DNA from: a virus | Strand: one strand, 5' to 3' | DNA: 64,000 bases | Virus record (IMG/VR): IMGVR_UViG_3300034691_000037 | Span: 1 to 64,000 of that record | In this document: positions 2,249-60,894 of the stretch, one piece after another | How the letters are laid out: every line of letters starts with the position of its first letter | How positions within the stretch are numbered: position 1 is the first letter of the stretch | Program-made: the position numbers and the translations under genes | The notes under the pieces: generated by a model | Told to the model about the DNA's origin: nothing | Seen by the model: only the letters and a program-made list of their open reading frames with translations | Databases searched by the model: none

Positions 2249-3694
2249 TTAATAGACGTCGTCGCCTTTAGGACCTTTGTTTTTCGTGTGTTTTGACGAC
2301 AGGACTCGGCTGGAAGGGTCTGTAAAAGAGTCTTTAAGATGGACTCCCTTTAGTTCCAACATACGCGGCCGGTGCATTCGAGCCAGGATTTGCGTATCCA
2401 TGTGGGCCGGCAGGATATAAGGGAATACCATGCTTTTAGCGGCAGGATCTACTTTACCCAGGGATTCAAGCCTATCCGCAGCCGCCTCGGCTTCTTCCTT
2501 AGTCCCCAGAAGATCGTGATAGAAATTACCGACCTTCGGGCTCGGTAATACCGAATCCTGCACTTGCACCTGGCTGCCCCAATACAGCTTTCCCACAGGC
2601 TCCTGGGCAACCTCTTCTTCAACCGGTACCGGGCGTTTATCCGCACTGACTATGACACTATCTTTAGTAGCAGTGTAGGCACGCGCACCACGGTGTACGA
2701 CTACTTCAATGTTACCAGGCAGTTTATGATAAAGCTGGTATTTACCTTCTTCATCACAGCTGATATCGAACTCTTCGAACAGGTCAATGCCGTGTTCATC
2801 ATTCTTGATGTGCAGGGCAAATGAACGAAAGTCCGTCATGTCGAAGGTCAGGTCTTCCCTGTAGAACTGCTTACCAGCGACTTGGACACTGGCCAGGTTA
2901 TATTCGTAGTGGTACATGCCGGGTACGTTCAAGATACGTACGCGTTTTACCAACGATTTCCAGTCAGCGCACTTAGCCGCTTCTTTACACACGAACTTCA
3001 GAATATCGAAGCTCATGATAGAAGCGTCGCCCTGAGCCCATTCACGCAGTGACGGCCGAAGCTGATGAGGAACGTTGAAAGCTTCCATCATCTCAACCAC
3101 TACCTGGTCTTCAATACCGCGATACTGAATCCAGTACTTGATTCGACCAGGGCGGTTGATCAAGAAATTGTTAATGCCACTGGCCTCGTTGACGGTCATG
3201 ATAAACAGGATTTTCTTAAGATCGCTGTCACTGAACAGAGTCAGCAGCTTCTTCTGGTCGTCCTCGTCGTAGATCTTTTCGAATTCATCGAACATGACCA
3301 TAGCGCCACCAGGGCATGCCATCACGGCAGCCTTGATCATGCCAGGTGGAATACACGAATCAACCATGAACACCGGAATGTCGGCGATCAGTGATTTGTT
3401 TGCCAGCGCTTCGGCCAAGACCGTTTTACCGCAGCCTTTATTGCCGAACAGCATAGCGCCGGTGGCGCCTTCGGTAGAGCGCCAGTCATCGTACAGCAGT
3501 TCCAGGAATTCCTGGTTCGAACCGTACAGGCGTTCAGGAACGTTGAAGTTCTTACGGTCCTTGACAAGCACCAGGTTCATATTGCCGTCGATGTTCAGCT
3601 TGTAAACATACGGCGGGATATGGTCAATCAGGTTGCTGTTGTCAACCTGTTGGAAAACGATACCCCAATCACGAGAACTTAATACTGTTGGCAT
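2249..3694 (-). CDS. AAA+ family ATPase
   Basis: The 481-residue protein has a Walker A GNKGCGKT at about 84-91, a Walker B MVMFDEFEK near 132-139, a sensor-like TVN, and an NRPGR arginine-finger motif near 180. These mark an AAA+ ATPase of the proteasome/FtsH/Bcs1-like branch, which remodels or unfolds protein complexes using ATP. The C-terminal 230 residues are not recognisable and may hold the substrate-binding part. It is related to the 319-residue AAA+ protein at 39136-40095 (same DEF and NRPGR signatures). Substrate and function in the phage are unknown. Confidence 0.9.
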   Translation of the reverse strand: MPTVLSSRDWGIVFQQVDNSNLIDHIPPYVYKLNIDGNMNLVLVKDRKNFNVPERLYGSNQEFLELLYDDWRSTEGATGAMLFGNKGCGKTVLAEALANKSLIADIPVFMVDSCIPPGMIKAAVMACPGGAMVMFDEFEKIYDEDDQKKLLTLFSDSDLKKILFIMTVNEASGINNFLINRPGRIKYWIQYRGIEDQVVVEMMEAFNVPHQLRPSLREWAQGDASIMSFDILKFVCKEAAKCADWKSLVKRVRILNVPGMYHYEYNLASVQVAGKQFYREDLTFDMTDFRSFALHIKNDEHGIDLFEEFDISCDEEGKYQLYHKLPGNIEVVVHRGARAYTATKDSVIVSADKRPVPVEEEVAQEPVGKLYWGSQVQVQDSVLPSPKVGNFYHDLLGTKEEAEAAADRLESLGKVDPAAKSMVFPYILPAHMDTQILARMHRPRMLELKGVHLKDSFTDPSSRVLSSKHTKNKGPKGDDVY

Positions 3695-7802: not shown

Positions 7803-8410
7803 GGTTTATCTGATTCCTTTTTAACGGTCGTTTGTTCAACAGAGAGATCGAGACCACCCTGCCAACGTTCTTTATTATTGAGGAGTGTGAAATTAAGCGC
7901 TCTCGACTTAAAGACAACGACTACCTTTCCGTGATCACAGTCGGTCATGACTGCCTCGATCTTGGATTCCATCCTTAAAGCAATGTATCGCAGCGTCTCA
8001 CTAAGTTCACGGGTTGGTCCGCCCGAAAGAAGATCAATGAGGGGCATATTCTCAAAAGATGATTCATTTGAGAGGTAAAGTATTTGCACCGTCGGTAAGC
8101 CCATCTCAGTAATTTGAGGTGACAGTATTTCGGATGCTTTCAACCCAAGACCATTGGGGAGTAACACAGATAGGCTTCGAACTGTACAGCCAGTCAATCG
8201 CGTAGTCGCATTAACTATTTGCCGATCCCAGGGTATTGTAAATTCGTTTACCTCACCTCGACGCCAACCGTATTGAAGGAACTGGTTAGCCGTTTCCTGA
8301 TAAATAGAATCCCACTCAACGATCGACATTACAATTGGTGGCTTTACTAACTTGGGCGTTTCAGGAGACTTAGGGGTATTTCTTGAAGACCACCATTTGA
8401 ACACGCTCAT
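7799..8410 (-). CDS. Hypothetical protein
   Basis: The 203-residue protein starts MSVFKWWSSRNTPKSPETP. The ATG at 8410 is preferred for AAAGGA upstream. Its N-terminal 25 residues are basic and Pro-rich, followed by a soluble domain. A segment VQILYLSNE resembles IVYLSN and VIYLAN segments in the proteins at 45377 and 56514, which may mean a distant shared fold; this is weak. No known family. Confidence 0.7.
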   Translation of the reverse strand: MSVFKWWSSRNTPKSPETPKLVKPPIVMSIVEWDSIYQETANQFLQYGWRRGEVNEFTIPWDRQIVNATTRLTGCTVRSLSVLLPNGLGLKASEILSPQITEMGLPTVQILYLSNESSFENMPLIDLLSGGPTRELSETLRYIALRMESKIEAVMTDCDHGKVVVVFKSRALNFTLLNNKERWQGGLDLSVEQTTVKKESDKP

Positions 8411-8446
8411 GACGGCATTCCTTTCAGTGTATTTCATATAACGGTG

Positions 8447-8899
8447 TTACCGAGCCCACCATGTATCGCGATTCTTTTGCTGAGCTTCCCTCAGGGCTTC
8501 ACGCTTCTGTTCGTACATCGCTTGCGGACCCATGTAGTCATACGTGACGATGTGATTGAGACCACCACGGATAAGGAAGACCAGTTCTTTGACGTCCTTA
8601 ATATTAGCGATGTGCGCTTCCAGCACTGGCTTCAATGGACCATACGGTTCGATGATCGCCGAAGCGGTACCTTTGATCTCGTTCAACTCGATACTAAGAA
8701 ACCTGCCGCAGACACGATTCTCATCGATGTACGCAATACGCGAGTTGGACCACATGCCGTTAGACAGCTCCTCGATATATTCGATACCGATAGGATCTCG
8801 CCGACAGCGTTTTTCAAAAGAACGCCAGTTTTCGATATTCCCATCGCGGACGAGGGCCAGGCTAGAACCAACCGGCGGTTTAAATTCGATTGTGATCAT
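8447..8899 (-). CDS. Hypothetical protein
   Basis: The 150-residue soluble protein has AAGGAAG upstream of its ATG. Its C-terminal 30 residues are a charged helix (YEQKREALREAQQKNRDTW). No recognised domain. It is separated from the next gene by about 36 nt. Confidence 0.75.
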   Translation of the reverse strand: MITIEFKPPVGSSLALVRDGNIENWRSFEKRCRRDPIGIEYIEELSNGMWSNSRIAYIDENRVCGRFLSIELNEIKGTASAIIEPYGPLKPVLEAHIANIKDVKELVFLIRGGLNHIVTYDYMGPQAMYEQKREALREAQQKNRDTWWAR

Positions 8900-8921
8900 A
8901 GTGAACTTCCTTCGCTAATCT

Positions 8922-9083
8922 TTAGAATTTAATAATCAGGGTAAAGAAAACCGCAAGTTCGAGAACTACCCAAACCGCCCTACCCAGTATAGGCCACTTC
9001 CGCATATCGCTTTCCATCAGGATAAACGCAATGGCGCAATACAGAAAACTCCCAATAAGCACACTACCTATAGCTACGTTCAT
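8922..9083 (-). CDS. Small membrane protein
   Basis: Only 53 residues, starting MNVAIGSVLIGSFLYCAIAF, with two hydrophobic helices (about 4-21 and 32-51) joined by a short charged loop. The ATG at 9083 has AAGGAC upstream and overlaps the stop of the next small membrane gene by 4 nt. It is probably an inner-membrane protein of unknown role. Confidence 0.7.
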   Translation of the reverse strand: MNVAIGSVLIGSFLYCAIAFILMESDMRKWPILGRAVWVVLELAVFFTLIIKF

Positions 9084-9241
9084 GGAGCAGTCCTTACGTA
9101 GATTAAACCGCCAGCCACGGCGATAATTACAAGGACCAGTTTCCAAAAGGAATCCCAGTGCTCAGGGTTGAAACCACCTGAGACAAACGCCCCACAGAAA
9201 TAAATTGCACAAATGAAAAGTGCGAATTTAAAGTATCGCAT
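9080..9241 (-). CDS. Small membrane protein
   Basis: The 53-residue protein MRYFKFALFICAIYF... has two predicted membrane segments (4-20 and about 32-48). Its ATG lies inside the last codons of the dCTP deaminase gene (14-nt overlap), with GGGGA upstream. It pairs with the following 53-residue membrane gene. Confidence 0.7.
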   Translation of the reverse strand: MRYFKFALFICAIYFCGAFVSGGFNPEHWDSFWKLVLVIIAVAGGLIYVRTAP

Positions 9242-9971
9242 CTTGAGTCCCCGTTTGACCCATGTACTTGCCACCGCGGTCTTTATAGCTGACTTCGCAA
9301 GGCTCGTTACCTTGGAGGAACAACAGCTGGGCAATGCCGGTTTCCAGGTAGATGCGCATAGGCAACTCTACCAGGTTAGCGATCTCCAGCACCAGCTCGC
9401 CTTCCCACTCAGGTTCCAGCGGGGTAACAATCGGCATCATCGCTACACGGGCGTACGTGCTCTTACCCAGACACATGACAAGGATGTCACGAGGGATGGC
9501 AAACGATTCCACGGTGTGGCCCAGCGCTACAGACTTTGGCGGCAGGACAAAGTAGTGCAGCTTGAACTCTTCATCGTACTGAACGATTGGTTCTTTGTAC
9601 GCCTCAGGGGACATACGCATCGGATCGATGATGGCCGAGTTGATGTTGGTAAAGATCTTCAGACCTTCTTTCTTCATCCGGATGTCGTAGCCAAACGAAC
9701 TTGTTCCGTAGCTTATTACTTTAACGTCACCAATAAATCGAACTGCTTGCGGCTCGAACGGCGTAATCATTGGTTTCCAATTTACACGTTTAAGCGCTTC
9801 AGGGGTAGCGTCAATCAGCCGTGCGTAGGAACGCGCTACCCATTGCTCAACACATTCAGCTGTGTGCGTAACACCGGAGATTACAGGACTGTGTTTACCA
9901 TCATTCTCCAACAGCAAATGACTTGGTTTCATGCAGCGTTCTTTGATTTGCCGATCTGATAAAAGTGCCAT
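9228..9971 (-). CDS. dcd: dCTP deaminase
   Basis: The 247-residue protein converts dCTP to dUTP (or dUMP in the bifunctional branch), feeding dTMP synthesis. Family hallmarks are visible: MALLSDRQI at the start, SYGTSSFGYDIR, LPPKSVALGHTVE, LVMCLGKSTYARV and TPLEPEWEGELVLEIAN, the last holding the catalytic Glu. Compared with bacterial enzymes of about 190 residues it has an extra 50-55 residues after SDRQI (about 11-66). The ATG at 9971 has AAAGGA upstream. It fits with the thymidylate synthase and dTMP kinase genes at 48.7-52.6 kb. Confidence 0.92.
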   Translation of the reverse strand: MALLSDRQIKERCMKPSHLLLENDGKHSPVISGVTHTAECVEQWVARSYARLIDATPEALKRVNWKPMITPFEPQAVRFIGDVKVISYGTSSFGYDIRMKKEGLKIFTNINSAIIDPMRMSPEAYKEPIVQYDEEFKLHYFVLPPKSVALGHTVESFAIPRDILVMCLGKSTYARVAMMPIVTPLEPEWEGELVLEIANLVELPMRIYLETGIAQLLFLQGNEPCEVSYKDRGGKYMGQTGTQDAIL

Positions 9972-10001
9972 GTACAGAATCCTTTTAAATAACATAGAAG
10001 A

Positions 10002-10024
10002 CGGAGGGCTCATACAGCCCCCCG
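10002..10024 (-). terminator. Hairpin terminator candidate
   Basis: On the minus strand GGGGGGCT pairs with AGCCCTCC (including G-U pairs) around a 5-nt loop, between the small membrane gene at 10041 and the deaminase gene. The T content downstream is modest. Confidence 0.45.
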
Positions 10025-10040
10025 TTGCGTCATTAAATAC

Positions 10041-10358
10041 TCAGTAGATATCGAAACTCCACGTCTTGCCTTTACCCTTACTGACGTAGAGCGTTTCCTT
10101 GTCGTAATGGACGTCGACATCAATACCGAATTTCTCCAACATCTTGAGTCGGCGATAAATGCCTTTCAGATGTATGCCTTTTGGAATACAGCTGAAGTCG
10201 TTCTTTGCAAAGCATGTCGAAACAGCCGTGCACCAATCAAGCATTTCTTTACGTTCGTCATAGCGCACTGAGCTAAGCTTTAGCCAGATAAGTACGATGA
10301 CTAGGAAGCTAAGCGCCACAAGAACTCCGTGCGCCTCAACCCCGAAAAACTCGTTCAT
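10041..10358 (-). CDS. Single-TM hypothetical protein
   Basis: The 105-residue protein has one membrane helix (about 11-27, GVLVALSFLVIVLIWL) and a soluble, basic C-terminal domain of about 75 residues. AAGG lies upstream of the ATG, and its start overlaps the end of the ATP-grasp gene by 4 nt. No family recognised. Confidence 0.75.
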   Translation of the reverse strand: MNEFFGVEAHGVLVALSFLVIVLIWLKLSSVRYDERKEMLDWCTAVSTCFAKNDFSCIPKGIHLKGIYRRLKMLEKFGIDVDVHYDKETLYVSKGKGKTWSFDIY

Positions 10359-11383
10359 TGATAGACCTTCAATACGGTGGAGGCTTCGGCGTCGAGATAA
10401 CGGTCAACGACCATTTCCATGAATTGAACATGCATGGAGTGGATGATCGTTTGCGGAATACCCGAGATCCCGAATTGGTTACAGAACTCGAAAATACCCC
10501 AGTGTCCGTCGTTTGTAACGAACAGGTCAATCGAACTCATTGGTCCAACCGCATGGCGGCACAGATAGTTGAGCATGTCACGTTCGACACACCCAGGCAT
10601 TTCATCAATGTCTACAATGGAGTCCTTGTCGATCAAAGCACCACCACCAGTAGCCTGAGGGAACACTGATTCTGGATCACGAATCCGACGCTTCTGAATA
10701 TAGGTGGGTTCGCAATCCTTGTTGGTGATGATGCGGTATTCGGTACCAATGTTTTCGACCACGGTCTGGACAATGACACCTTGCTCTTTGAGCGTGGTCA
10801 AACCTTCAAGCGGTTTGTTTTCACTACCGGTATGGTAAGTAACCGCGTCTTCATATTTGGCAAGGAACTCGGCCAACGATTCAGCGGTATATTCGCTAGC
10901 CAAAAGAGTGTTAAGGCTTTTGAGGAAAGCGTCGATGTTAACAAGATGTGTGTTAACAACAAACTGTCCGATGCCGCGAGCGCCGTCGTTTGGCTTAACA
11001 ACCATACGACCCGGCTGGATTGGGTAATTGCGACCACCCCAGCCTTGTTTCCAGGTGGGGACGTTAATGAAGAAGTTGCGTCGGGTTTGACCTGCAGAGT
11101 AAGCGGCGGCGGTTTGCTGCAAGAGGCAGTGCTGAACAATCTTACCATAGCGAGGGATTTCAACCAGGCGCCAGCTAGGGACAATACTGCCAAGCAGTTC
11201 TTGCTTGTACTTACCCGACACAAAGATATCGAAGTTGAAAACGGTCTTATCGCCGACCATGTTGAAATCAGGTGTGTTGTGGATTACAACCTCATCACCA
11301 TTCGCCAACGTGTGGCGCAAACCCAATACGCTGAAGTTATCCATGAATGGATCTACGGCAACAACGATAGTACGCTTAGCCAT
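10355..11383 (-). CDS. ATP-grasp-like ligase
   Basis: The 342-residue protein shows ATP-grasp features: a Lys/Gly-rich nucleotide loop VVKPNDGARGIG near residue 130, a strand with YRIITN then YIQKRRI, and a metal-binding end SIDLFVTNDGHWGIFEFCNQ that resembles the D...FE.N motif of RimK and glutathione synthetase relatives. Such enzymes join a carboxylate to an amine through an acyl phosphate. The substrate is not evident. AAGGG precedes the ATG; the nearby TTG codon two positions earlier is rejected. It is in one run with an HD hydrolase and a QueC-like protein. Confidence 0.65.
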   Translation of the reverse strand: MAKRTIVVAVDPFMDNFSVLGLRHTLANGDEVVIHNTPDFNMVGDKTVFNFDIFVSGKYKQELLGSIVPSWRLVEIPRYGKIVQHCLLQQTAAAYSAGQTRRNFFINVPTWKQGWGGRNYPIQPGRMVVKPNDGARGIGQFVVNTHLVNIDAFLKSLNTLLASEYTAESLAEFLAKYEDAVTYHTGSENKPLEGLTTLKEQGVIVQTVVENIGTEYRIITNKDCEPTYIQKRRIRDPESVFPQATGGGALIDKDSIVDIDEMPGCVERDMLNYLCRHAVGPMSSIDLFVTNDGHWGIFEFCNQFGISGIPQTIIHSMHVQFMEMVVDRYLDAEASTVLKVYQ

Positions 11384-15757: not shown

Positions 15758-15994
15758 AGTATGGGAGGTACTACTGCACTGATGCTCCATCCGGCTGCGA
15801 GGTCTTTTCCATCATCCTGATGTCCATATGTTCTATTCGCCCTTACGAGGGGTTGTAACAATCGCAATACGGTACCAGTACAGTATCTGCTGCAGCAGAT
15901 TAGGCGCCCGCGGCACGCACCTATTCGCTCCTGCCCGAGGCTTCGGCACGGCAGGAATTACTTAGTGGACCGCAGGCATAACACTTGAAACAGG

Positions 15995-16079
15995 CCCGAG
16001 AGGCGGGACTTGAACCCACGACCTTTACCCTGAGGAGCGACCTTAAGGTAACGTTCTAACCAACTGAAACTACTCTCGG
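15995..16079 (-). tRNA. tRNA-like element with abnormal anticodon arm
   Basis: On the minus strand there is a 7-bp acceptor stem CCGAGAG/CTCTCGG, TA at positions 8-9, a D arm GTTT-CAGTTGGTTA-GAAC, an anticodon stem TTACC/GGTAA, the classical variable loop AGGTC, and a T arm GTGGG-TTCAAGT-CCCGC. The loop closed by TTACC/GGTAA is 17 nt instead of 7, so no anticodon can be read. No CCA is encoded after the discriminator G. A class II (long variable arm) fold does not fit. It is either a degenerate tRNA or a tRNA-like domain of the surrounding RNA. Confidence 0.65.
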
Positions 16080-29171: not shown

Positions 29172-29498
29172 CTATTGGGCACCAGGGGTTTTACACATGG
29201 TGATGATAAGCTGTTCGATCAACTCATCCGCCTTATGTAAATCCTCTGTAAATATTGTTTCAACAAAGCCATCGCTATCAAGGGTACCGGCAACCGCCTT
29301 CGCGCCAATCAGTGCAGCGTACAGACTAAACTCCCAAGAGGAATTGCCGAATGGTCGCTTGCTGTCAAAGTTTGACTTAGCTTGCCACAGAGTAAACAAC
29401 AAGCTTTGAAGGTAATTGCGGATAGACGATTTAGGACCACCCTTTTCAAACTGCCATTCGAGATCAAGCAGTTCATCATGAGTTATCTCGGTTGCCAT
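29172..29498 (-). CDS. Small phage protein, FDSKxPxGNSxW family (copy 1)
   Basis: The 108-residue protein shares with the upstream gene product the segments DLEWQF, IRNYLQSLLFTLW, FDSKRPFGNSSWEF and YAALIGAKAVAG. Proteins with an FD(S/G)KRPFGNSGW motif occur widely in phages; their function is not known to me. The 15-nt overlap with the upstream copy supports tandem duplication. Confidence 0.78.
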   Translation of the reverse strand: MATEITHDELLDLEWQFEKGGPKSSIRNYLQSLLFTLWQAKSNFDSKRPFGNSSWEFSLYAALIGAKAVAGTLDSDGFVETIFTEDLHKADELIEQLIITMCKTPGAQ

Positions 29499-29875
29499 GA
29501 TTCCGCCAAGGTTTTAGCACAGTCGGGAGTCGAGCACATGGCTGTGATCAGACCCATTGTGATATCGGAAGCCTTCTTGACATTACCGTCACCACGTTCC
29601 CAGCCGAACATGGTTTCGTCAATATCACCTTCAATGGCTTTAGCGGCTACGAGAGCTTCGTAGAAGTCAAGCTGCCAACCACTATTACCCCACGGCCATT
29701 TAGAATCAAAACTCTCACCCCTTTCCCAAAGGGTCAGCAACAGATGCTTAAGGAAGTCACGGATACGGACTTTACCTACATCACGGAAATCCCACTCGAA
29801 ATCGAGCAACTCCGGATTCTCGCAAACAAGCGGTGCTGGTACGAACCGCACGCCATTGATCAGAACTTCAGTCAT
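29483..29875 (-). CDS. Small phage protein, FDSKxPxGNSxW family (copy 2)
   Basis: This 130-residue relative of the next gene product carries DFEWDF, IRDFLKHLLLTLW, FDSKWPWGNSGWQ and YEALVAAKAIEG. It has an N-terminal extension of about 22 residues not present in the other copy. It overlaps the upstream gene by 8 nt. Confidence 0.78.
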   Translation of the reverse strand: MTEVLINGVRFVPAPLVCENPELLDFEWDFRDVGKVRIRDFLKHLLLTLWERGESFDSKWPWGNSGWQLDFYEALVAAKAIEGDIDETMFGWERGDGNVKKASDITMGLITAMCSTPDCAKTLAESWQPR

Positions 29876-38961: not shown

Positions 38962-39138
38962 TTAGAATTGCTTGACCGACTGCTGATAAGGTTGATTCTT
39001 ATATTCGACATCATCCTCCATGTGGCCGAATTGATGTTTGTTCACACCTGTGACGTCACGCGAACGTACTTTAAATACGTGCTCGGTAACATCGCGTTCG
39101 ACGCCGATCTTCAGACCTTCGTCAATTTTCAGTTGTCA
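38962..39138 (-). other. In-frame extension after UGA of the AAA+ gene
   Basis: The TGA that ends the AAA+ gene (39136-39138) is followed in the same frame by 57 sense codons and a TAA at 38962-38964. The extension reads QLKIDEGLKIGVERDV..., then KVRSRDVTGVNKHQFG and ends QQSVKQF; it looks like protein, not random sequence. There is no ATG near its beginning and no ribosome site. Either UGA (context UGA-C) is read through at some rate, or the tail was cut off by a nonsense change, or the base is a sequencing error. Confidence 0.6.
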
Positions 39139-40095
39139 GATAGCGCCACGTCTAACTTTGCTGACGGTGGCCCACACCAGCGGTTGGCTGTAGACCACAG
39201 CGCCTGTTTTGTTTTCGGTAAGCTCCAAGGTCAGCAGGCCTTCTTCGCTCTGATCTAACCAGCCTCGGTAATCAGTGGTACTGTTGTTGTACGTCACGTC
39301 CTTAACGGTGTAACGAATGTTGACCTTGGCGGGCAGGTTGTAGAATTCGATTTTGTTGATGAAGTCCACAGGTGTCACGCACTTGGACAGCAGCTTCTTC
39401 ATCAGAAGCAGCATATCGAAACTGATAGCGTGGTACTGCGAATACATACGCAGGTACTCAACCAGCTCAGGGCTGTGCTTAGGGTTGGCTAGCGCGGCAA
39501 TGATGGTGGCTTCTTTGATACCGTCGTAGTTGATACGGTATTTGAAACGACCGGGGCGGTTCAGCATGGCGTCAACGAATTCGCGTTCGCTGTTGGCCGT
39601 GACGATGAAGAGGATGTTGCGCTTTTCGCTATCGCTGAACAGAGTCAGGACAGAGTTACGTTCTTCGCTCTTGTCGTACACCTTGCCAAACTCATCGAAC
39701 AACACGGCACAAGGGCCGAGCAGGTTGATGATGGTAGAGATGAGACTACCCGGCAATGGCGTAGTGATGTTCAGCACAGGCCGGCCTGAGTCAAGGACCA
39801 TATTGCAAAGGTCTTCGGAAAGCATGGTTTTACCCGAGCCCTTCAGACCAACCAGGATCACGCCGACTGGCGAAGTGGTGCTGTTGTAATCGCTGATGAT
39901 CAGATCACGGATAGTGTTGTGGTCACCGAGGGGGTCTTTCGGGATTTCGAACTGGGTACGGCCTTTGTACAGGCGAGGGCCTTCTTCCGACATCATCAGG
40001 TTGTAAACTGCGGCTGGCAGCTTATCGACCTTACGGGCCAGGTTAATATCCTGGACCAAATAGTTACTGTCTTGATCGGTAGTAATCAGGGGCAT
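39136..40095 (-). CDS. AAA+ family ATPase
   Basis: The 319-residue protein has a Walker A GLKGSGKT at 83-90, Walker B AVLFDEFGK near 132-140, sensor TAN and an NRPGR motif. It is a close relative in outline of the 481-residue AAA+ protein at 2249-3694: both start near an MP.. segment, share YGS/YKG then a DEF Walker B and similar spacing. It ends at UGA, but the frame continues for another 57 codons (separate entry). CGGAG precedes the ATG. Probable protein-remodelling ATPase. Confidence 0.9.
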   Translation of the reverse strand: MPLITTDQDSNYLVQDINLARKVDKLPAAVYNLMMSEEGPRLYKGRTQFEIPKDPLGDHNTIRDLIISDYNSTTSPVGVILVGLKGSGKTMLSEDLCNMVLDSGRPVLNITTPLPGSLISTIINLLGPCAVLFDEFGKVYDKSEERNSVLTLFSDSEKRNILFIVTANSEREFVDAMLNRPGRFKYRINYDGIKEATIIAALANPKHSPELVEYLRMYSQYHAISFDMLLLMKKLLSKCVTPVDFINKIEFYNLPAKVNIRYTVKDVTYNNSTTDYRGWLDQSEEGLLTLELTENKTGAVVYSQPLVWATVSKVRRGAI

Positions 40096-41631: not shown

Positions 41632-42738
41632 TTACTGAGAAAAGCCAACGCCGGTACGTTTGACGATACGGTCTTGGTGCATTTCGTGATAGTTCAAAGC
41701 TTTCGCCAGGGTCATGGTTTTGTCATCCATATCCACCGATTCCAGTTCCATCATGTCACGCACAGCGTAGGCCTGTTCCTTCGACAGAAGTTCGAAACGA
41801 AGCACGTCGAAGCAACGACCTGGGCGTGTCAGTGCGTCGTCGGTGCCAGAGAGCGACTCCAGGTTGGTGGAGAAGATAATCTTCACATCACGACTTACAA
41901 TGCCTTCAGCGGCGTTCAGGACAGCCGACATGTTGTCGTTACCCAGATCGCGAGACATCAGCAGACGGTCAGCGTCCTCACAGATTACAACAGACCCTGC
42001 TGGACAGCCACGGATGTAGTCGGACAACCCTGGGTTCAGCAGAACATCCTGACGGTCGATCATGCTGATCTTGTCATCCCAGCCGCGTGCGTCCATCATC
42101 TGCAAGATGAAGTTAGACTTACCGGTACCCGGAGGACCAATCAGAACGAGGACGTTAGCCCTGGACTTCGCGAAAGCTGCCCAGACCTCAGCAGGCGTAC
42201 GGCCAAAGTACGGGTAGAACAGAGTTTGGTTTTTGATCACGCCGATGGGTGGGATCGTTTCGATCGTCGTCGCAATCGCTTTGTCGTTCAGTGTCAGACG
42301 GCGCAGATGCGGTGTAACGCCTGTATCGATCAGCTCTTTGAATGTATCGCGGAAGTAGTTGACGAATGCATCGGTGCCGATGACATCGTACTTGGCCTGA
42401 GTGGCGCTGGTGCTTGGATTGACGAAGGCACCGATGATTTCATCCTCGTTGATGATGAGCCGACCCATCAGGGTGCGCATGAAGCGCAGACCTTGAGGTT
42501 TGAGGATACCGTCCAGAACGACCTTGTGAATATGCCGGTCGTTCTCGCCGCCAGTTTTGCCATGGGCGATGTCGGCGGTGAGGTGCGCTTGCTGAGCATC
42601 CCAGCCTTTGCTGGAGAAGAACAGGCGGGAGATGTCGTAGATGTTATCGCCACGTAGCAATGGAAGCTGGTCGTTCCAATGCTTGATGTTATCGAGGAGG
42701 TTTTGACTTACAGGTTCTGGAATGAAATTGAGACGCAT
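41632..42738 (-). CDS. AAA+ family ATPase (third)
   Basis: The 368-residue protein has an N-terminal 190-residue domain not recognised, then Walker A GPPGTGKS at 201-208, Walker B SVVICEDADR, sensor FSTN and DALTRPGRCFD, the last typical of Bcs1-, FtsH- and Cdc48-like AAA proteins. Compared with the other two AAA+ genes it belongs to a different subgroup (EDADR in place of FDEF). GGAG precedes the ATG. It lies directly downstream of the RKK gene array. Likely a protein-remodelling ATPase. Confidence 0.9.
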   Translation of the reverse strand: MRLNFIPEPVSQNLLDNIKHWNDQLPLLRGDNIYDISRLFFSSKGWDAQQAHLTADIAHGKTGGENDRHIHKVVLDGILKPQGLRFMRTLMGRLIINEDEIIGAFVNPSTSATQAKYDVIGTDAFVNYFRDTFKELIDTGVTPHLRRLTLNDKAIATTIETIPPIGVIKNQTLFYPYFGRTPAEVWAAFAKSRANVLVLIGPPGTGKSNFILQMMDARGWDDKISMIDRQDVLLNPGLSDYIRGCPAGSVVICEDADRLLMSRDLGNDNMSAVLNAAEGIVSRDVKIIFSTNLESLSGTDDALTRPGRCFDVLRFELLSKEQAYAVRDMMELESVDMDDKTMTLAKALNYHEMHQDRIVKRTGVGFSQ

Positions 42739-42785: not shown

Positions 42786-42992
42786 TTACGACTTTGTAAA
42801 ATCTTTGCAACCACCTATGTGTACAGCAAGCATGACCTTATGAAACCTACATTGATCGCCATCAACGAAGTGACCTTCTGTCCGGAATGGCCGCGACGGA
42901 CACACGGCATTATCATTGTCGATTGCGCCACTGCCGCCGTCTGGCGATGAAACCCGCGGATCGGCAAATTTCTTACGGGTTATGTCCAACAT
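42786..42992 (-). CDS. RKK array gene 7 (last)
   Basis: The 68-residue protein MLDITRKKFADPRV... carries the array's RKK motif at residues 6-8 and DGGSG after it. The ATG at 42992 has CGGAG upstream. The C-terminal half (FHKVMLAVHIGGCKDF) differs from the other copies, so the gene may be degenerate or recombined at its end. Seven neighbouring genes at 42786-44405 share the N-terminal motif. Function unknown. Confidence 0.7.
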   Translation of the reverse strand: MLDITRKKFADPRVSSPDGGSGAIDNDNAVCPSRPFRTEGHFVDGDQCRFHKVMLAVHIGGCKDFTKS

Positions 42993-43003
42993 ATTCAACT
43001 CCG

Positions 43004-43252
43004 CTAAGGCCGGGTGTAATCACAAGAATCACCATGTCCTGAAGCTCTGTTAGCTTGGTCCTTCCTATCGATTTCGGCATCGAAGATCCAGCCGGCCTTA
43101 AATAAATCTGGGTCTGTTCTATCAGCCGGGTGACCTGGCGATAACCACCACGGATCGTTATACCCAATGCCGTCAGGTATTGTGCCATAACCGCCCTCAT
43201 CGCCAGGCTTTCGTCCCCGCATGGCTTTCTTACGATGCTGATCAATCGACAT
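43004..43252 (-). CDS. RKK array gene 6
   Basis: The 82-residue protein MSIDQHRKKAMRGRKPGDEGG... has RKK at 7-9, a DEGG motif, TDPDLFKAG in the middle and ends DYTRP, recalling the NYTRE end of genes 2 and 3. It starts at ATG 43252 inside the end of gene 5 (11-nt overlap). Highly polar and Trp/Gly/Asp-rich. Another frame of similar length across 42973-43245 is rejected because it lacks the motif and a ribosome site. Confidence 0.75.
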   Translation of the reverse strand: MSIDQHRKKAMRGRKPGDEGGYGTIPDGIGYNDPWWLSPGHPADRTDPDLFKAGWIFDAEIDRKDQANRASGHGDSCDYTRP

Positions 43253-43475
43253 GTTCTTTATCCACAGGTCTAAAATCACCACCGCGAAAGCGCCTAGTAT
43301 CTCTATCAATTGAATTGATGAGATTTTCGGGGTCTGTCGCGAAACAACCAAGGCGCCGATTACCGTCATCTGAGAAGTGGGTGGTTACTCTTTTATTCCT
43401 AACTCCGCCCTCATCTTTACTGATCATCAGATGATCGCGAGAGAGAACTTTTTTACGGTATACGTCAGCTGCCAT
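43242..43475 (-). CDS. RKK array gene 5
   Basis: The 77-residue protein MAADVYRKKVLSRDHLM... has RKK at 7-9, DEGGVRNKR, then SDDGNRR and ATDPENL. The spacing of these blocks matches gene 4 (NDGNRTEG, LDPDVL). AGAGGG precedes the ATG. Overlap of 11 nt with gene 4. Strongly charged; no membrane segment. Confidence 0.75.
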   Translation of the reverse strand: MAADVYRKKVLSRDHLMISKDEGGVRNKRVTTHFSDDGNRRLGCFATDPENLINSIDRDTRRFRGGDFRPVDKEHVD

Positions 43476-43692
43476 GATGAGCCCTCTTAAACGGCGCGAC
43501 GCCGCACACTCTGAACGGATCGAGCTCTCTGGCGGGGGTTAAGACATCCGGATCAAGTTGACCATTGCCTTCTGTGCGATTACCGTCGTTGTAGTAATAG
43601 TCCCTCATTGTGTCAAGGGGTCTCCCACCATCGGATGATCTGCAGACCCACTCACCCGGCATTGCTTTCTTTCTGTGGTTGTCGTGACGCAT
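43465..43692 (-). CDS. RKK array gene 4
   Basis: The 75-residue protein MRHDNHRKKAMPGEW... has RKK at 7-9, SDGGRPLDTMRDYYYNDGN and LDPDVLTPARELDPFR. Its ribosome site GGGAG is formed by the last codons (YTRE-stop) of gene 3, so the repeat unit carries the next gene's translation signal. Confidence 0.78.
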   Translation of the reverse strand: MRHDNHRKKAMPGEWVCRSSDGGRPLDTMRDYYYNDGNRTEGNGQLDPDVLTPARELDPFRVCGVAPFKRAHHGS

Positions 43693-43697
43693 GGGAG

Positions 43698-43952
43698 TTA
43701 CTCCCGAGTGTAATTGGACAAATCTATTTTTTCTCTAGCCGCTTCAGCATCTTCTAGGCGAATAATGTCAAGATCAGGTTCGGTGGTGTAGTTTCCTTCG
43801 ACAACGTGCCACTGCCTCATTACAAATTTCGCCTGATTAAAGTCACCGGAACGGTGAGTATCGTCAGTCATGGTTTCCCGACCCGTGGATTCAGAAAACC
43901 AATGACAACGAGGTATATGCATCCATTTCTTTCTATCGTTACCTATGTCCAT
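43698..43952 (-). CDS. RKK array gene 3
   Basis: The 84-residue protein MDIGNDRKKWMHIPR... carries RKK at 7-9, TGRETMTDD, EGNYTTEPDLDIIRLEDAE and ends DLSNYTRE. It is the closest relative of gene 2 (QETVDDH, DGVYTDKPDLDLFRKEDAE, LLNYTRE). The ATG at 43952 is preferred over a GTG two codons earlier because GGGAG spacing is better. Confidence 0.8.
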   Translation of the reverse strand: MDIGNDRKKWMHIPRCHWFSESTGRETMTDDTHRSGDFNQAKFVMRQWHVVEGNYTTEPDLDIIRLEDAEAAREKIDLSNYTRE

Positions 43953-43957
43953 CCACA

Positions 43958-44197
43958 CTACTCCCGAGTGTAGTTCAATAAAGTGTGACGCTGGTTTACA
44001 AACTCAGCGTCCTCCTTACGAAATAGATCAAGATCGGGCTTATCGGTATACACGCCGTCGATGATGTAACCCTCTTTCATGTCAGAATAACTATAGTCAC
44101 CCATGAAGTTACTGTGGTCATCAACCGTTTCCTGCCCTAACTCCATAACCAAATAAAAGCGGGATGCAGGCTCTTTCTTTCTGTCCATATCGTGCAT
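43958..44197 (-). CDS. RKK array gene 2
   Basis: The 79-residue protein MHDMDRKKEPASRF... has RKK at 6-8, LGQETVDDHSNFMGDY, then GVYTDKPDLDLFRKEDAE and the C-terminal NYTRE. With gene 3 it defines the family core. The ribosome site before the ATG is weak; a second ATG three codons in is possible. Confidence 0.78.
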   Translation of the reverse strand: MHDMDRKKEPASRFYLVMELGQETVDDHSNFMGDYSYSDMKEGYIIDGVYTDKPDLDLFRKEDAEFVNQRHTLLNYTRE

Positions 44198-44213
44198 AAT
44201 GAATTTTATCTCA

Positions 44214-44405
44214 TTAAGACTTCATGTCACAAAAACTACTGAACATGTATACGGGAGTGAACCCACTCAGGAAGCCACCGCCATCCCTATCCGTAGGAAC
44301 TCGCTGATAGGGCTGCTTGTAGTCCATTATTGTCGACCTTCCACCACCATCTTCATTAAGGCTTGGCATTTCTTCTTTCTTACGTTCTATATTTAACCTG
44401 TCCAT
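44214..44405 (-). CDS. RKK array gene 1 (promoter-proximal)
   Basis: The 63-residue protein MDRLNIERKKEEMPSL... has RKK at 8-10, then DGGGRSTIMDY and DRDGGGF. TGGAGG lies about 5 nt upstream of the ATG at 44405. It is the first gene after the promoter motif at 44437-44450. It lacks the PDLDL and NYTRE parts, so it is a short member. Confidence 0.75.
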   Translation of the reverse strand: MDRLNIERKKEEMPSLNEDGGGRSTIMDYKQPYQRVPTDRDGGGFLSGFTPVYMFSSFCDMKS

Positions 44406-44436
44406 AGACACCTCCAGGACGTTCTCTATTACCATG

Positions 44437-44450
44437 ATGTATTGCCGTAG
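44437..44450 (-). promoter_or_regulatory. Predicted early promoter of the RKK array
   Basis: Read leftward TACGGCAATACATCATGG, 32 bp before the first array gene and just after the hairpin at 44477-44510. The array therefore looks like one independently expressed early operon. Confidence 0.62.
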
Positions 44451-44476: not shown

Positions 44477-44510
44477 GCATATAGGCAGGGCGTACGCCCT
44501 GCCTATATGC
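44477..44510 (-). terminator. Long CATA/TATG hairpin
   Basis: A 15-bp perfect stem gcatataggcagggc/gccctgcctatatgc with a 4-nt loop separates the upstream gene from the RKK array promoter. Confidence 0.68.
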
Positions 44511-44511
44511 T

Positions 44512-44772
44512 TTACGCAAGGTCCATTTCATTCATCAAGACCACTAAGGGTATTGTTGTAAGCTCCTTTAAGGGACTGTCCTTCTCGCTACCAATGACCA
44601 CTCCCGACTCCAGGTGCATGTAGCCGTACCAACCATGTTTAATACGCCTAATTAGCAGTCCAGAATCGGGATGGCTACCCTGCACCTCGTAGAGTAACCG
44701 ATCACTGTCGTTGGGTATGACGAACCTATCCCCAACTAATAGACGATGTCGATTGACCCGTATGGTTTCCAT
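44512..44772 (-). CDS. Hypothetical protein
   Basis: The 86-residue protein METIRVNRHRLLVGDRFVIP... is predicted beta-rich, like a small OB or SH3-type barrel, with a conserved-looking GWYGYMHL turn. AGAGG lies upstream of the ATG. Not recognised. It ends right before the long hairpin. Confidence 0.72.
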   Translation of the reverse strand: METIRVNRHRLLVGDRFVIPNDSDRLLYEVQGSHPDSGLLIRRIKHGWYGYMHLESGVVIGSEKDSPLKELTTIPLVVLMNEMDLA

Positions 44773-59712: not shown

Positions 59713-60894
59713 ATGGATAGCGTATTGCAAAGGTTAGCAATTCGCGGTGTCGTTCGTCGCAGTGAACAGAGCCTGGAAAGTGACATCGTTGATGCCGCTG
59801 ATTACTGTGATGCGCAGCTTACTTGTTTAAGCGAACTTTCGCTAAGTTCGTGTGTAGAAGCAGATGGGATTGTAGACGTTATCGAAGGCCAGGATGGTCT
59901 CGACAACATCATGCAGCAGTTTGCCGACAATCACGTCAACACGGACGTTACAGAGGCTTTTGCACAACAACTGGCTGTCTCAGTTGAGTCTTACCTCAGA
60001 GCCGCTGGTATCAATGTAGGTATCCGTAAATGGACGCCTTCATTTGAATCATCGACTCAATACAGCGCTGAACTAAAGGATACACGTAAAACCGCAGCAG
60101 CTGGAATTGGTAAGTGGTTAGCCGATGCGCTGCGTAAGGTCATGGACATGATCAAACGATGGTGGGGTCAGTTGACGGGCTCTGTTACGGCTGTGCGGAC
60201 GTATGTCGATAAAGTATCGGCTAAGGTCAAAACCCTAAAGGGTGAAGCGACCAATAACGACCCTGTTAAGTTGGGGGCTTCTGCCAACTACCTTACCGAC
60301 CGCCACGGTGCCATTGCAAAGCCCGATAAGCAGCTTGCAGAGTCCGATTCATTGTTCTCCGACTTCCTTCAGGAATGGTACGGTCTGTTTGATAAAGAGA
60401 CCCACATTCTTAAAAACCTTCCTCCTCTTAAATCAATCAAAATCGATTTCGCGGTAGGGCAGGCGCTGGAAGTGAAGCCAGGCAGTGGAGCGGGTAACCT
60501 CACAGGCGCTAAGGTCAATGTCGTCAAGACGCTGAAGGCCGCTAAGTCCGAAGGTCCTCTTCTTTCGCTGACTGACATGGAACACGGCATCAACGCGGCT
60601 AAAGATGCATTGGTCTCGTTCGCTAAACTGGATCAGGAAATTGATCGCCTTGACGCGCTGTCTAAAAGCTCCGCTAAGGAAGCTAGTGCTCAAGCCGACC
60701 ACTACACTGACAGTGAAGCCGGACGTGCCTTCAGCAAGCGCTCACGAGATCTGGTAAAGGCCTTTCAGCTCTGCAGTAACGGTCTGACGCATGTGAGTCC
60801 GTTTTACTTGAAAACCATTCGGGCGTGTGTTGAATATGTCGCCATCTGCACACGTCGCTACGCTACATCAGCACAGGATAAAACCCCATCATGA
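59713..60894 (+). CDS. Inner-head-type virion protein 3
   Basis: The 393-residue paralog has SLESDIVDAADY, LAVSVESYLRAAG, S-x-E sites at 110-112 (PSFE) and 118-120 (YSAE), LEVKPGSGAGNLTGAK and a C-terminal TIRACVEYVAICTRRY matching copies 1 and 2 in order. GGGG lies upstream of the ATG, 2 nt after the previous stop. Same inferred propeptide processing. Confidence 0.75.
   Translation: MDSVLQRLAIRGVVRRSEQSLESDIVDAADYCDAQLTCLSELSLSSCVEADGIVDVIEGQDGLDNIMQQFADNHVNTDVTEAFAQQLAVSVESYLRAAGINVGIRKWTPSFESSTQYSAELKDTRKTAAAGIGKWLADALRKVMDMIKRWWGQLTGSVTAVRTYVDKVSAKVKTLKGEATNNDPVKLGASANYLTDRHGAIAKPDKQLAESDSLFSDFLQEWYGLFDKETHILKNLPPLKSIKIDFAVGQALEVKPGSGAGNLTGAKVNVVKTLKAAKSEGPLLSLTDMEHGINAAKDALVSFAKLDQEIDRLDALSKSSAKEASAQADHYTDSEAGRAFSKRSRDLVKAFQLCSNGLTHVSPFYLKTIRACVEYVAICTRRYATSAQDKTPS

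Follow-up and report, generated by a model that had tools for sequence, protein, structure and literature searches.

The stretch of DNA analyzed here (henceforth, the window) represents bases 1-64000 of the 86,681-base IMG/VR contig IMGVR_UViG_3300034691_000037, and its minus strand harbors, from 44405 to 42786, a head-to-tail array of seven small reading frames of 63-84 aa, directly downstream of which lies a gene for a putative BCS1-like AAA ATPase (Table 1). All seven adjacent frames had been listed in a preliminary description of this DNA, and each was found on the minus strand where it had been placed, as was their tight packing, described there as overlapping or abutting, with gaps of 5-16 nt or overlaps of 11 nt between neighbors. 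The RKK triplet, expected at residues 6-10 of every frame, starts at residue 6-8 in all seven proteins, and small ORFs with RKK near their start are otherwise represented in the whole 86.7-kb contig by a single short ORF at 60433, which is antisense to a long ORF and was, hence, not counted as a credible gene. The codon score of the correct frame beats those of the other two sense frames in every array gene, and silent change exceeds replacement change between genes 2 and 3 (pS 0.72, pN 0.40), which, because the silent sites are near saturation, can be read as a sign of constraint but not as a measured ratio or as demonstrated positive selection, and which bears at most indirectly on the changing selection proposed earlier. 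Codon usage and the gene 2/3 substitution pattern indicate that the array frames are translated and selected at the protein level, and the possibility of chance ORFs was rejected on the RKK confinement, the codon scores and the silent versus replacement change.

Table 1. Features of the array locus in the window (L007 and L030 are the array-bearing relatives described in the text).
Feature	Position	Strand	Remarks
Conserved 86-aa gene	44512..44772	-	83% identical in L007; marks edge of hypervariable block
Perfect 17-bp inverted repeat	44477..44510		directly after upstream gene's stop codon
Promoter-like motif GCAATACATCATGGTA	44430..44445	-	conserved ahead of L007 array; resembles TACATTAC
Array gene 1	44214..44405	-	63 aa, MDRLNIERKK...; most diverged copy; good Shine-Dalgarno
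Array gene 2	43958..44197	-	79 aa, MHDMDRKK...LLNYTRE; close pair with gene 3
Array gene 3	43698..43952	-	84 aa, MDIGNDRKK...LSNYTRE; possible GTG start 43958
Array gene 4	43465..43692	-	75 aa, MRHDNHRKK...; weak pair with gene 5
Array gene 5	43242..43475	-	77 aa, MAADVYRKK...; weak pair with gene 4
Array gene 6	43004..43252	-	82 aa, MSIDQHRKK...SCDYTRP
Array gene 7	42786..42992	-	68 aa from ATG 42992, MLDITRKK...CKDFTKS; possible TTG start 42998
Putative BCS1-like AAA ATPase	41632..42738	-	directly downstream of array; L007/L030 relatives carry array copy as N-terminal extension

Variable-copy arrays in other jumbo phages, the search for which had been proposed earlier as a check, do exist: two distant uncultivated jumbo-phage contigs hold the same family at the same, syntenic locus, the number of copies varying among the three phages (seven in the window, eight in each of the others). 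L007 (IMGVR_UViG_3300009011_000001, 248.6 kb), whose ATPase is 63% identical to that of the window, carries its copies at 8086-10000, their tags reading RKK, RKK, RKK, SKK, RKS, RKK, RKN and RKK, while L030 (= G002; IMGVR_UViG_3300042009_000063, 307 kb), with an ATPase 51% identical to that of the window, has eight RKK copies at 8298-10000. Profile matches are confined to this one locus (seven, eight and at least six copies in the three phages), as no further array copy was detected in any of the nine genomes/records searched, and none of the members was found in Phabio, phiKZ, PS119XW, G003 or G004. Comparisons of the array proteins with the phage collection, PHROGs, Pfam, PADLOC and PDB resulted in chance-level matches only, and single-protein searches of IMG/VR and the phage collection returned no relatives; the earlier impression that the family is an undescribed one is, therefore, upheld as far as Pfam, PHROGs, PADLOC, PDB and the annotated phage genomes are concerned, and open-access papers yielded no description of such arrays in jumbo phages.

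Upstream of the array, the conserved 86-aa gene is followed by the inverted repeat and then by the promoter-like motif. The preliminary description was right about a hairpin, which is also kept in L007 with changes paired on both arms, but it is a 17-bp repeat with neither a loop nor a T-run, not a 15-bp one. The motif, GCAATACATNANGGTA at 44445, is likewise kept in L007, so that the view of the array as one transcription unit behind one early-type motif stands, with the position of the motif amended to that of Table 1. While the array's own motif in the window is a variant, TACATCAT, the form TACATTAC is found 30-60 nt ahead of the start codons of four other window operons (13723, 22674, 36756 and 55185; minus strand), and it is close to both the phiKZ early motif, tabulated as TATATTAC, and the tabulated EL motif, which contains CTACATTAT (PMC7058600). 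Judging by this resemblance, TACATTAC is likely an early promoter of the source phage, which makes early transcription of the array likely as well, and it is from the motif that we infer its early expression. Scanning for sigma-70 promoters was not informative, as it recovered 4 where 6.0 were expected.

Two terminal tags characterize the proteins. The N-terminal one, when the 23 proteins of the three phages are considered, has the consensus M-x-x-D-[IV]-x-R-K-K, with D at position -3 in 12 of the 23 and I/V at position -2 in 11. The arginine of RKK is encoded by five different codons (CGT 8, AGA 7, CGC 3, CGG 1, CGA 1) in a constant reading frame, and the selected unit is, therefore, the peptide; the triplet being a DNA-level element (a ribosome or processing site) was rejected on the same grounds and because of its variable distance from the start. 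At the other end, 7 of the 23 proteins terminate exactly in [DN][YFW][TA][RVK][EPS] (also given as [DN][YFW]T[RV][EP]), where 0.001 would be expected in shuffles, albeit for a pattern chosen after the sequences had been seen; the Y-T-R-E/P ending previously ascribed to three copies is that of genes 2, 3 and 6, gene 7 ending in DFTKS. The secondary blocks noticed earlier turned out to be genuine yet unevenly distributed: most copies have a G-x-x-T-like block, commonly some 10-20 residues after RKK, whereas N/D-D-G-N is limited to genes 4 and 5 (D-D-G-N/N-D-G-N) and (D/P)PD to genes 2, 3, 4 and 6. About one third of the residues are charged, the net charge ranging from -11 to +3. AlphaFold2 run on gene 3 with ~20 relatives yielded one weak helix at a mean pLDDT of 56 and no fold, which suggests that the hypervariable bodies are largely disordered, although the shallow alignment may also explain the low pLDDT and makes it weak evidence.

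Are these genes, then, related beyond their tags? Genes 2 and 3 are alike over their whole length (z of about 20-28 without the tag), and, contrary to the claim that they are the only such pair, genes 4 and 5 form a second, weaker one (z of 7.9 with the tag, 3.4-4.3 without it); the remaining pairs show hardly any similarity once the tag is removed. Adding the two other phages decided the matter: in full-length leave-one-out profile searches, 18 of the 21 proteins tested came out on top of 349 ORFs (two further L030 copies, bringing the total to 23, were recognized later). When the residues up to the tag were excluded, the ranks dropped, and most members still stood well above chance: genes 2, 3 and 6 came 1st, gene 5 2nd, gene 4 3rd and gene 7 4th, with gene 1 being lost (rank 38 of 349). 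Cross-matching among the seven is thus weak outside the tag, yet extends beyond RKK for six of them, and 4.0% of the body pairs exceed a z of 3, compared to 0.4% in controls. Pair scores and profile ranks bear out the proposed repeated duplication with divergence and, as far as sequence comparison goes, the seven genes are one real protein family, grown by tandem copying from one ancestor. Its members diverge much faster than the conserved flanking genes: no clear orthologue pair could be assigned between the window and L007, though the ATPases are 63% and the 86-aa gene products 83% identical. Some other neighbors of the array also diverge quickly (25-48%), so the array is an extreme case inside a fast region.

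The window shares with the nearest annotated phage DNA, that of Pseudomonas phage Phabio, 117 bases at 72%, and no close DNA-level match was found among the annotated phages. Its ATPase shares 47% identity with Phabio gp308 at 98% coverage and about 38% with phiKZ PHIKZ208, on the basis of which the source is placed among jumbo phages near the phiKZ/Phabio kind; the jumbo-phage origin assumed previously fits with core genes related to those of phiKZ and Phabio. The nuclear shell protein chimallin is encoded in the array-bearing G002, as well as in Phabio, G003 and G004; neither the 86.7-kb contig of the window nor G001 yielded it, each being a fragment. A scan of bacterial and archaeal genome contigs for relatives of the array-side ATPase returned none, and the array has, therefore, not been seen in the assembly of any cultured host. 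Elsewhere in the window, there is a paralogous protein pair (2249-3694 and 39136-40095; 31% over 271 aa, E 5e-42), whose second member has a counterpart in L007 that resembles an AAA ATPase, a pair of neighboring duplicated small genes (29172-29498 and 29483-29875; 43% identical over 99 aa), and a tRNA-like gene at 15993-16079 on the minus strand (Rfam tRNA, 46 bits), the anticodon of which was not cleanly readable by ARAGORN.

In Phabio (gp302-306), L009, L031 and L032, four or five polar ORFs of 73-98 aa likewise immediately precede the same ATPase, an RNA ligase intervening in Phabio; they differ from the array in lacking both the RKK tag and a profile match, and may represent either a counterpart that has diverged far from it or an independent occupant of the locus. 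Between L009 and L031, these ORFs are 43-57% identical, the ATPase being 88% identical. Among the five adjacent small genes upstream of the Phabio RNA ligase/ATPase pair (L004:9025-10360), three encode proteins with a common EARVEN block at residues 18-26, and gp305 and gp306 are alike along their length, whereas three of the five neighboring small ORFs at L031:5466-6538 end in a W-x-x-D/E-x-K/Q-R-G-like sequence and are possibly another tag-sharing array. A generic scan for tag-sharing arrays recovered, besides the RKK arrays, a single other strong case, located in G002 10 kb from its RKK array (G002:40199-42860, L035:199-2860; minus strand): at least 10 ORFs of 48-103 aa, whose products begin with MKS[DN]xEI[GP] and end with NEI(G), and which have no equivalent in the six other records examined. 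There, stop and start codons overlap at a AATGAAATC junction, ATGAAAT being read in two frames, and since both tags partly reflect this one overlapping junction, the MKS array, unlike the RKK one, may have been shaped at the DNA level.

As for the downstream gene, a PDB profile search gave BCS1 as the best match of its product (E 1.6e-11), and fold comparison placed Bcs1 and Bacillus YjoB first, at low TM-scores of 0.27-0.39; it is on these matches that we call it a BCS1-like AAA ATPase. The array adjoins it in all three phages, and in both L007 and L030 the stop codon is missing from the final array copy, which reads on in frame into the ATPase (fused ORFs at 9755-11110, 451 aa, and 9782-11098, 438 aa, respectively), whereas gene 7 of the window stops before the ATPase and no fused copy exists there. 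In L007, the inner ATPase start retains a good Shine-Dalgarno sequence, and both fused and unfused ATPase could, therefore, be made. The fused extension is predicted to be disordered (residues 1-91 below pLDDT 50), and no contact of it was seen in the structure prediction. The in-frame fusions could be functionless read-through frames, and we treat them strictly as a lead towards the ATPase as a partner of the array.

The reading that we put first, if still tentatively, is that of an early array of diversified accessory, host-interaction proteins sharing a putative docking tag and possibly linked to the ATPase. Repeated tandem duplication would have given rise to a set of small accessory proteins maintained in one early-type operon, where the constant tag would dock every member onto one common partner, and the variable body would contact targets that differ or change, as one would expect of proteins that interact with the host. 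That common partner may be the neighboring BCS1-like ATPase, as it shares a reading frame with the final array copy in two of the three phages. Whether the task is host takeover or anti-defense, as was suggested at the outset, is a guess, and conserved tags on poorly predicted bodies suit several other tasks too.

One such alternative, unlikely but with a real chance of being correct, is that the array proteins are clients or adaptors of the ATPase or N-terminal pieces detachable from it, i.e., stand-alone versions of its N-terminal extension that are handled by, or regulate, a chaperone-like translocase. The invariable position of the array directly upstream of the ATPase, the in-frame fusion in two of the three phages where they meet and the BCS1 and YjoB matches would all fit; however, Phabio-type relatives retain the ATPase beside untagged small genes, the window ATPase does without a fused copy, and two in-frame coincidences are not very unlikely (by our estimate, the reading frame by itself gives a chance of about one in nine). 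Less probable still, we consider that the array encodes small nucleic-acid-binding proteins, in which RNA or DNA would be contacted by RKK, with specificity being tuned by the acidic, variable rest of the protein, for example, in neutralizing host RNases or toxins. Every copy has the basic triplet, and T4 TifA, an 85 aa anti-toxin that has clustered positive residues and undergoes tandem amplification under selection (PMC9391042), provides a precedent, yet three basic residues alone make a poor binding site, the net charge of the proteins speaks against such a role, and the searches turned up no known nucleic-acid binder of matching sequence.

It is very unlikely, in our opinion, that the array proteins are packaged and injected like the T4 internal proteins, with RKK within a capsid targeting tag and bodies serving anti-defense. 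The design is the same (a small size, a constant N-terminal tag and a hypervariable body), the T-even internal proteins being highly diverse with the targeting sequence as their sole conserved part (PMC3012670); nevertheless, no shared protease site follows the tag ([SAG]xE occurs within 25 residues in 10 of the 23 proteins versus 5.6 when shuffled, at no fixed position), the promoter motif looks early, the neighbors are not virion genes, and the consensus tag is unlike that of T4. A gene nursery, in which a start cassette (ribosome site, start codon and first codons) is duplicated ahead of near-neutral bodies, would account for the very poor conservation of the bodies between phages and for the different start tag of the second G002 array, but has a similarly slim chance given the excess of silent change between genes 2 and 3, the retention of the C-terminal tag and the above-control similarity of the bodies.

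A bolder reading, which we regard as rather improbable, is a modular address-tag system in some nucleus-forming jumbo phages, in which arrays of quickly diversifying small proteins would be directed by a shared terminal tag to one phage machine (here, a BCS1-like translocating ATPase that may itself bear the tag module), the tags varying by phage and even between two loci of one phage (RKK versus MKSDxEIG in G002). For most genes of nucleus-forming jumbo phages no function is known, and sorting the fast-evolving small early ones into groups is particularly difficult, as they have no sequence in common. At least some such genes are one family, recognizable solely by short terminal tags and their locus, and the array offers a handle on them: one tag, one candidate partner (the ATPase) and a copy-number-variable set that can be compared across phages. 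If the tag is an address, this would be a new way for a phage to deploy diversified small effectors.

Among the known systems, the SPO1 host-takeover module resembles the array in being a cluster of small early genes; it and other early clusters comprise many small early genes of unknown relatives, which, to our knowledge, are not paralogues sharing one terminal tag. The capsid-targeted and injected IPI-IPIII of T4/T-even phages are, like the array, a variable set of small proteins with a short constant N-terminal tag and diverse bodies, but they bear no detectable sequence relation to it and differ in their tag and likely timing; we do not class the two together because a shared cleavage site is missing and packaging of the array proteins into virions would be conjecture. 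T4 TifA, in the dmd-tifA segmental amplification, is a small early counter-defense gene product of about 85 aa whose gene can be tandemly amplified by recombination (PMC9391042), which is reminiscent of the array, yet no sequence relation was found and its positive cluster is central, whereas that of the array is the N-terminal tag. Set beside these systems, we regard the array as a new, real family in a known kind of organization, that of the small-protein sets which some phages turn against their hosts; its likeliest role is host interaction, and the ATPase is the first candidate partner.
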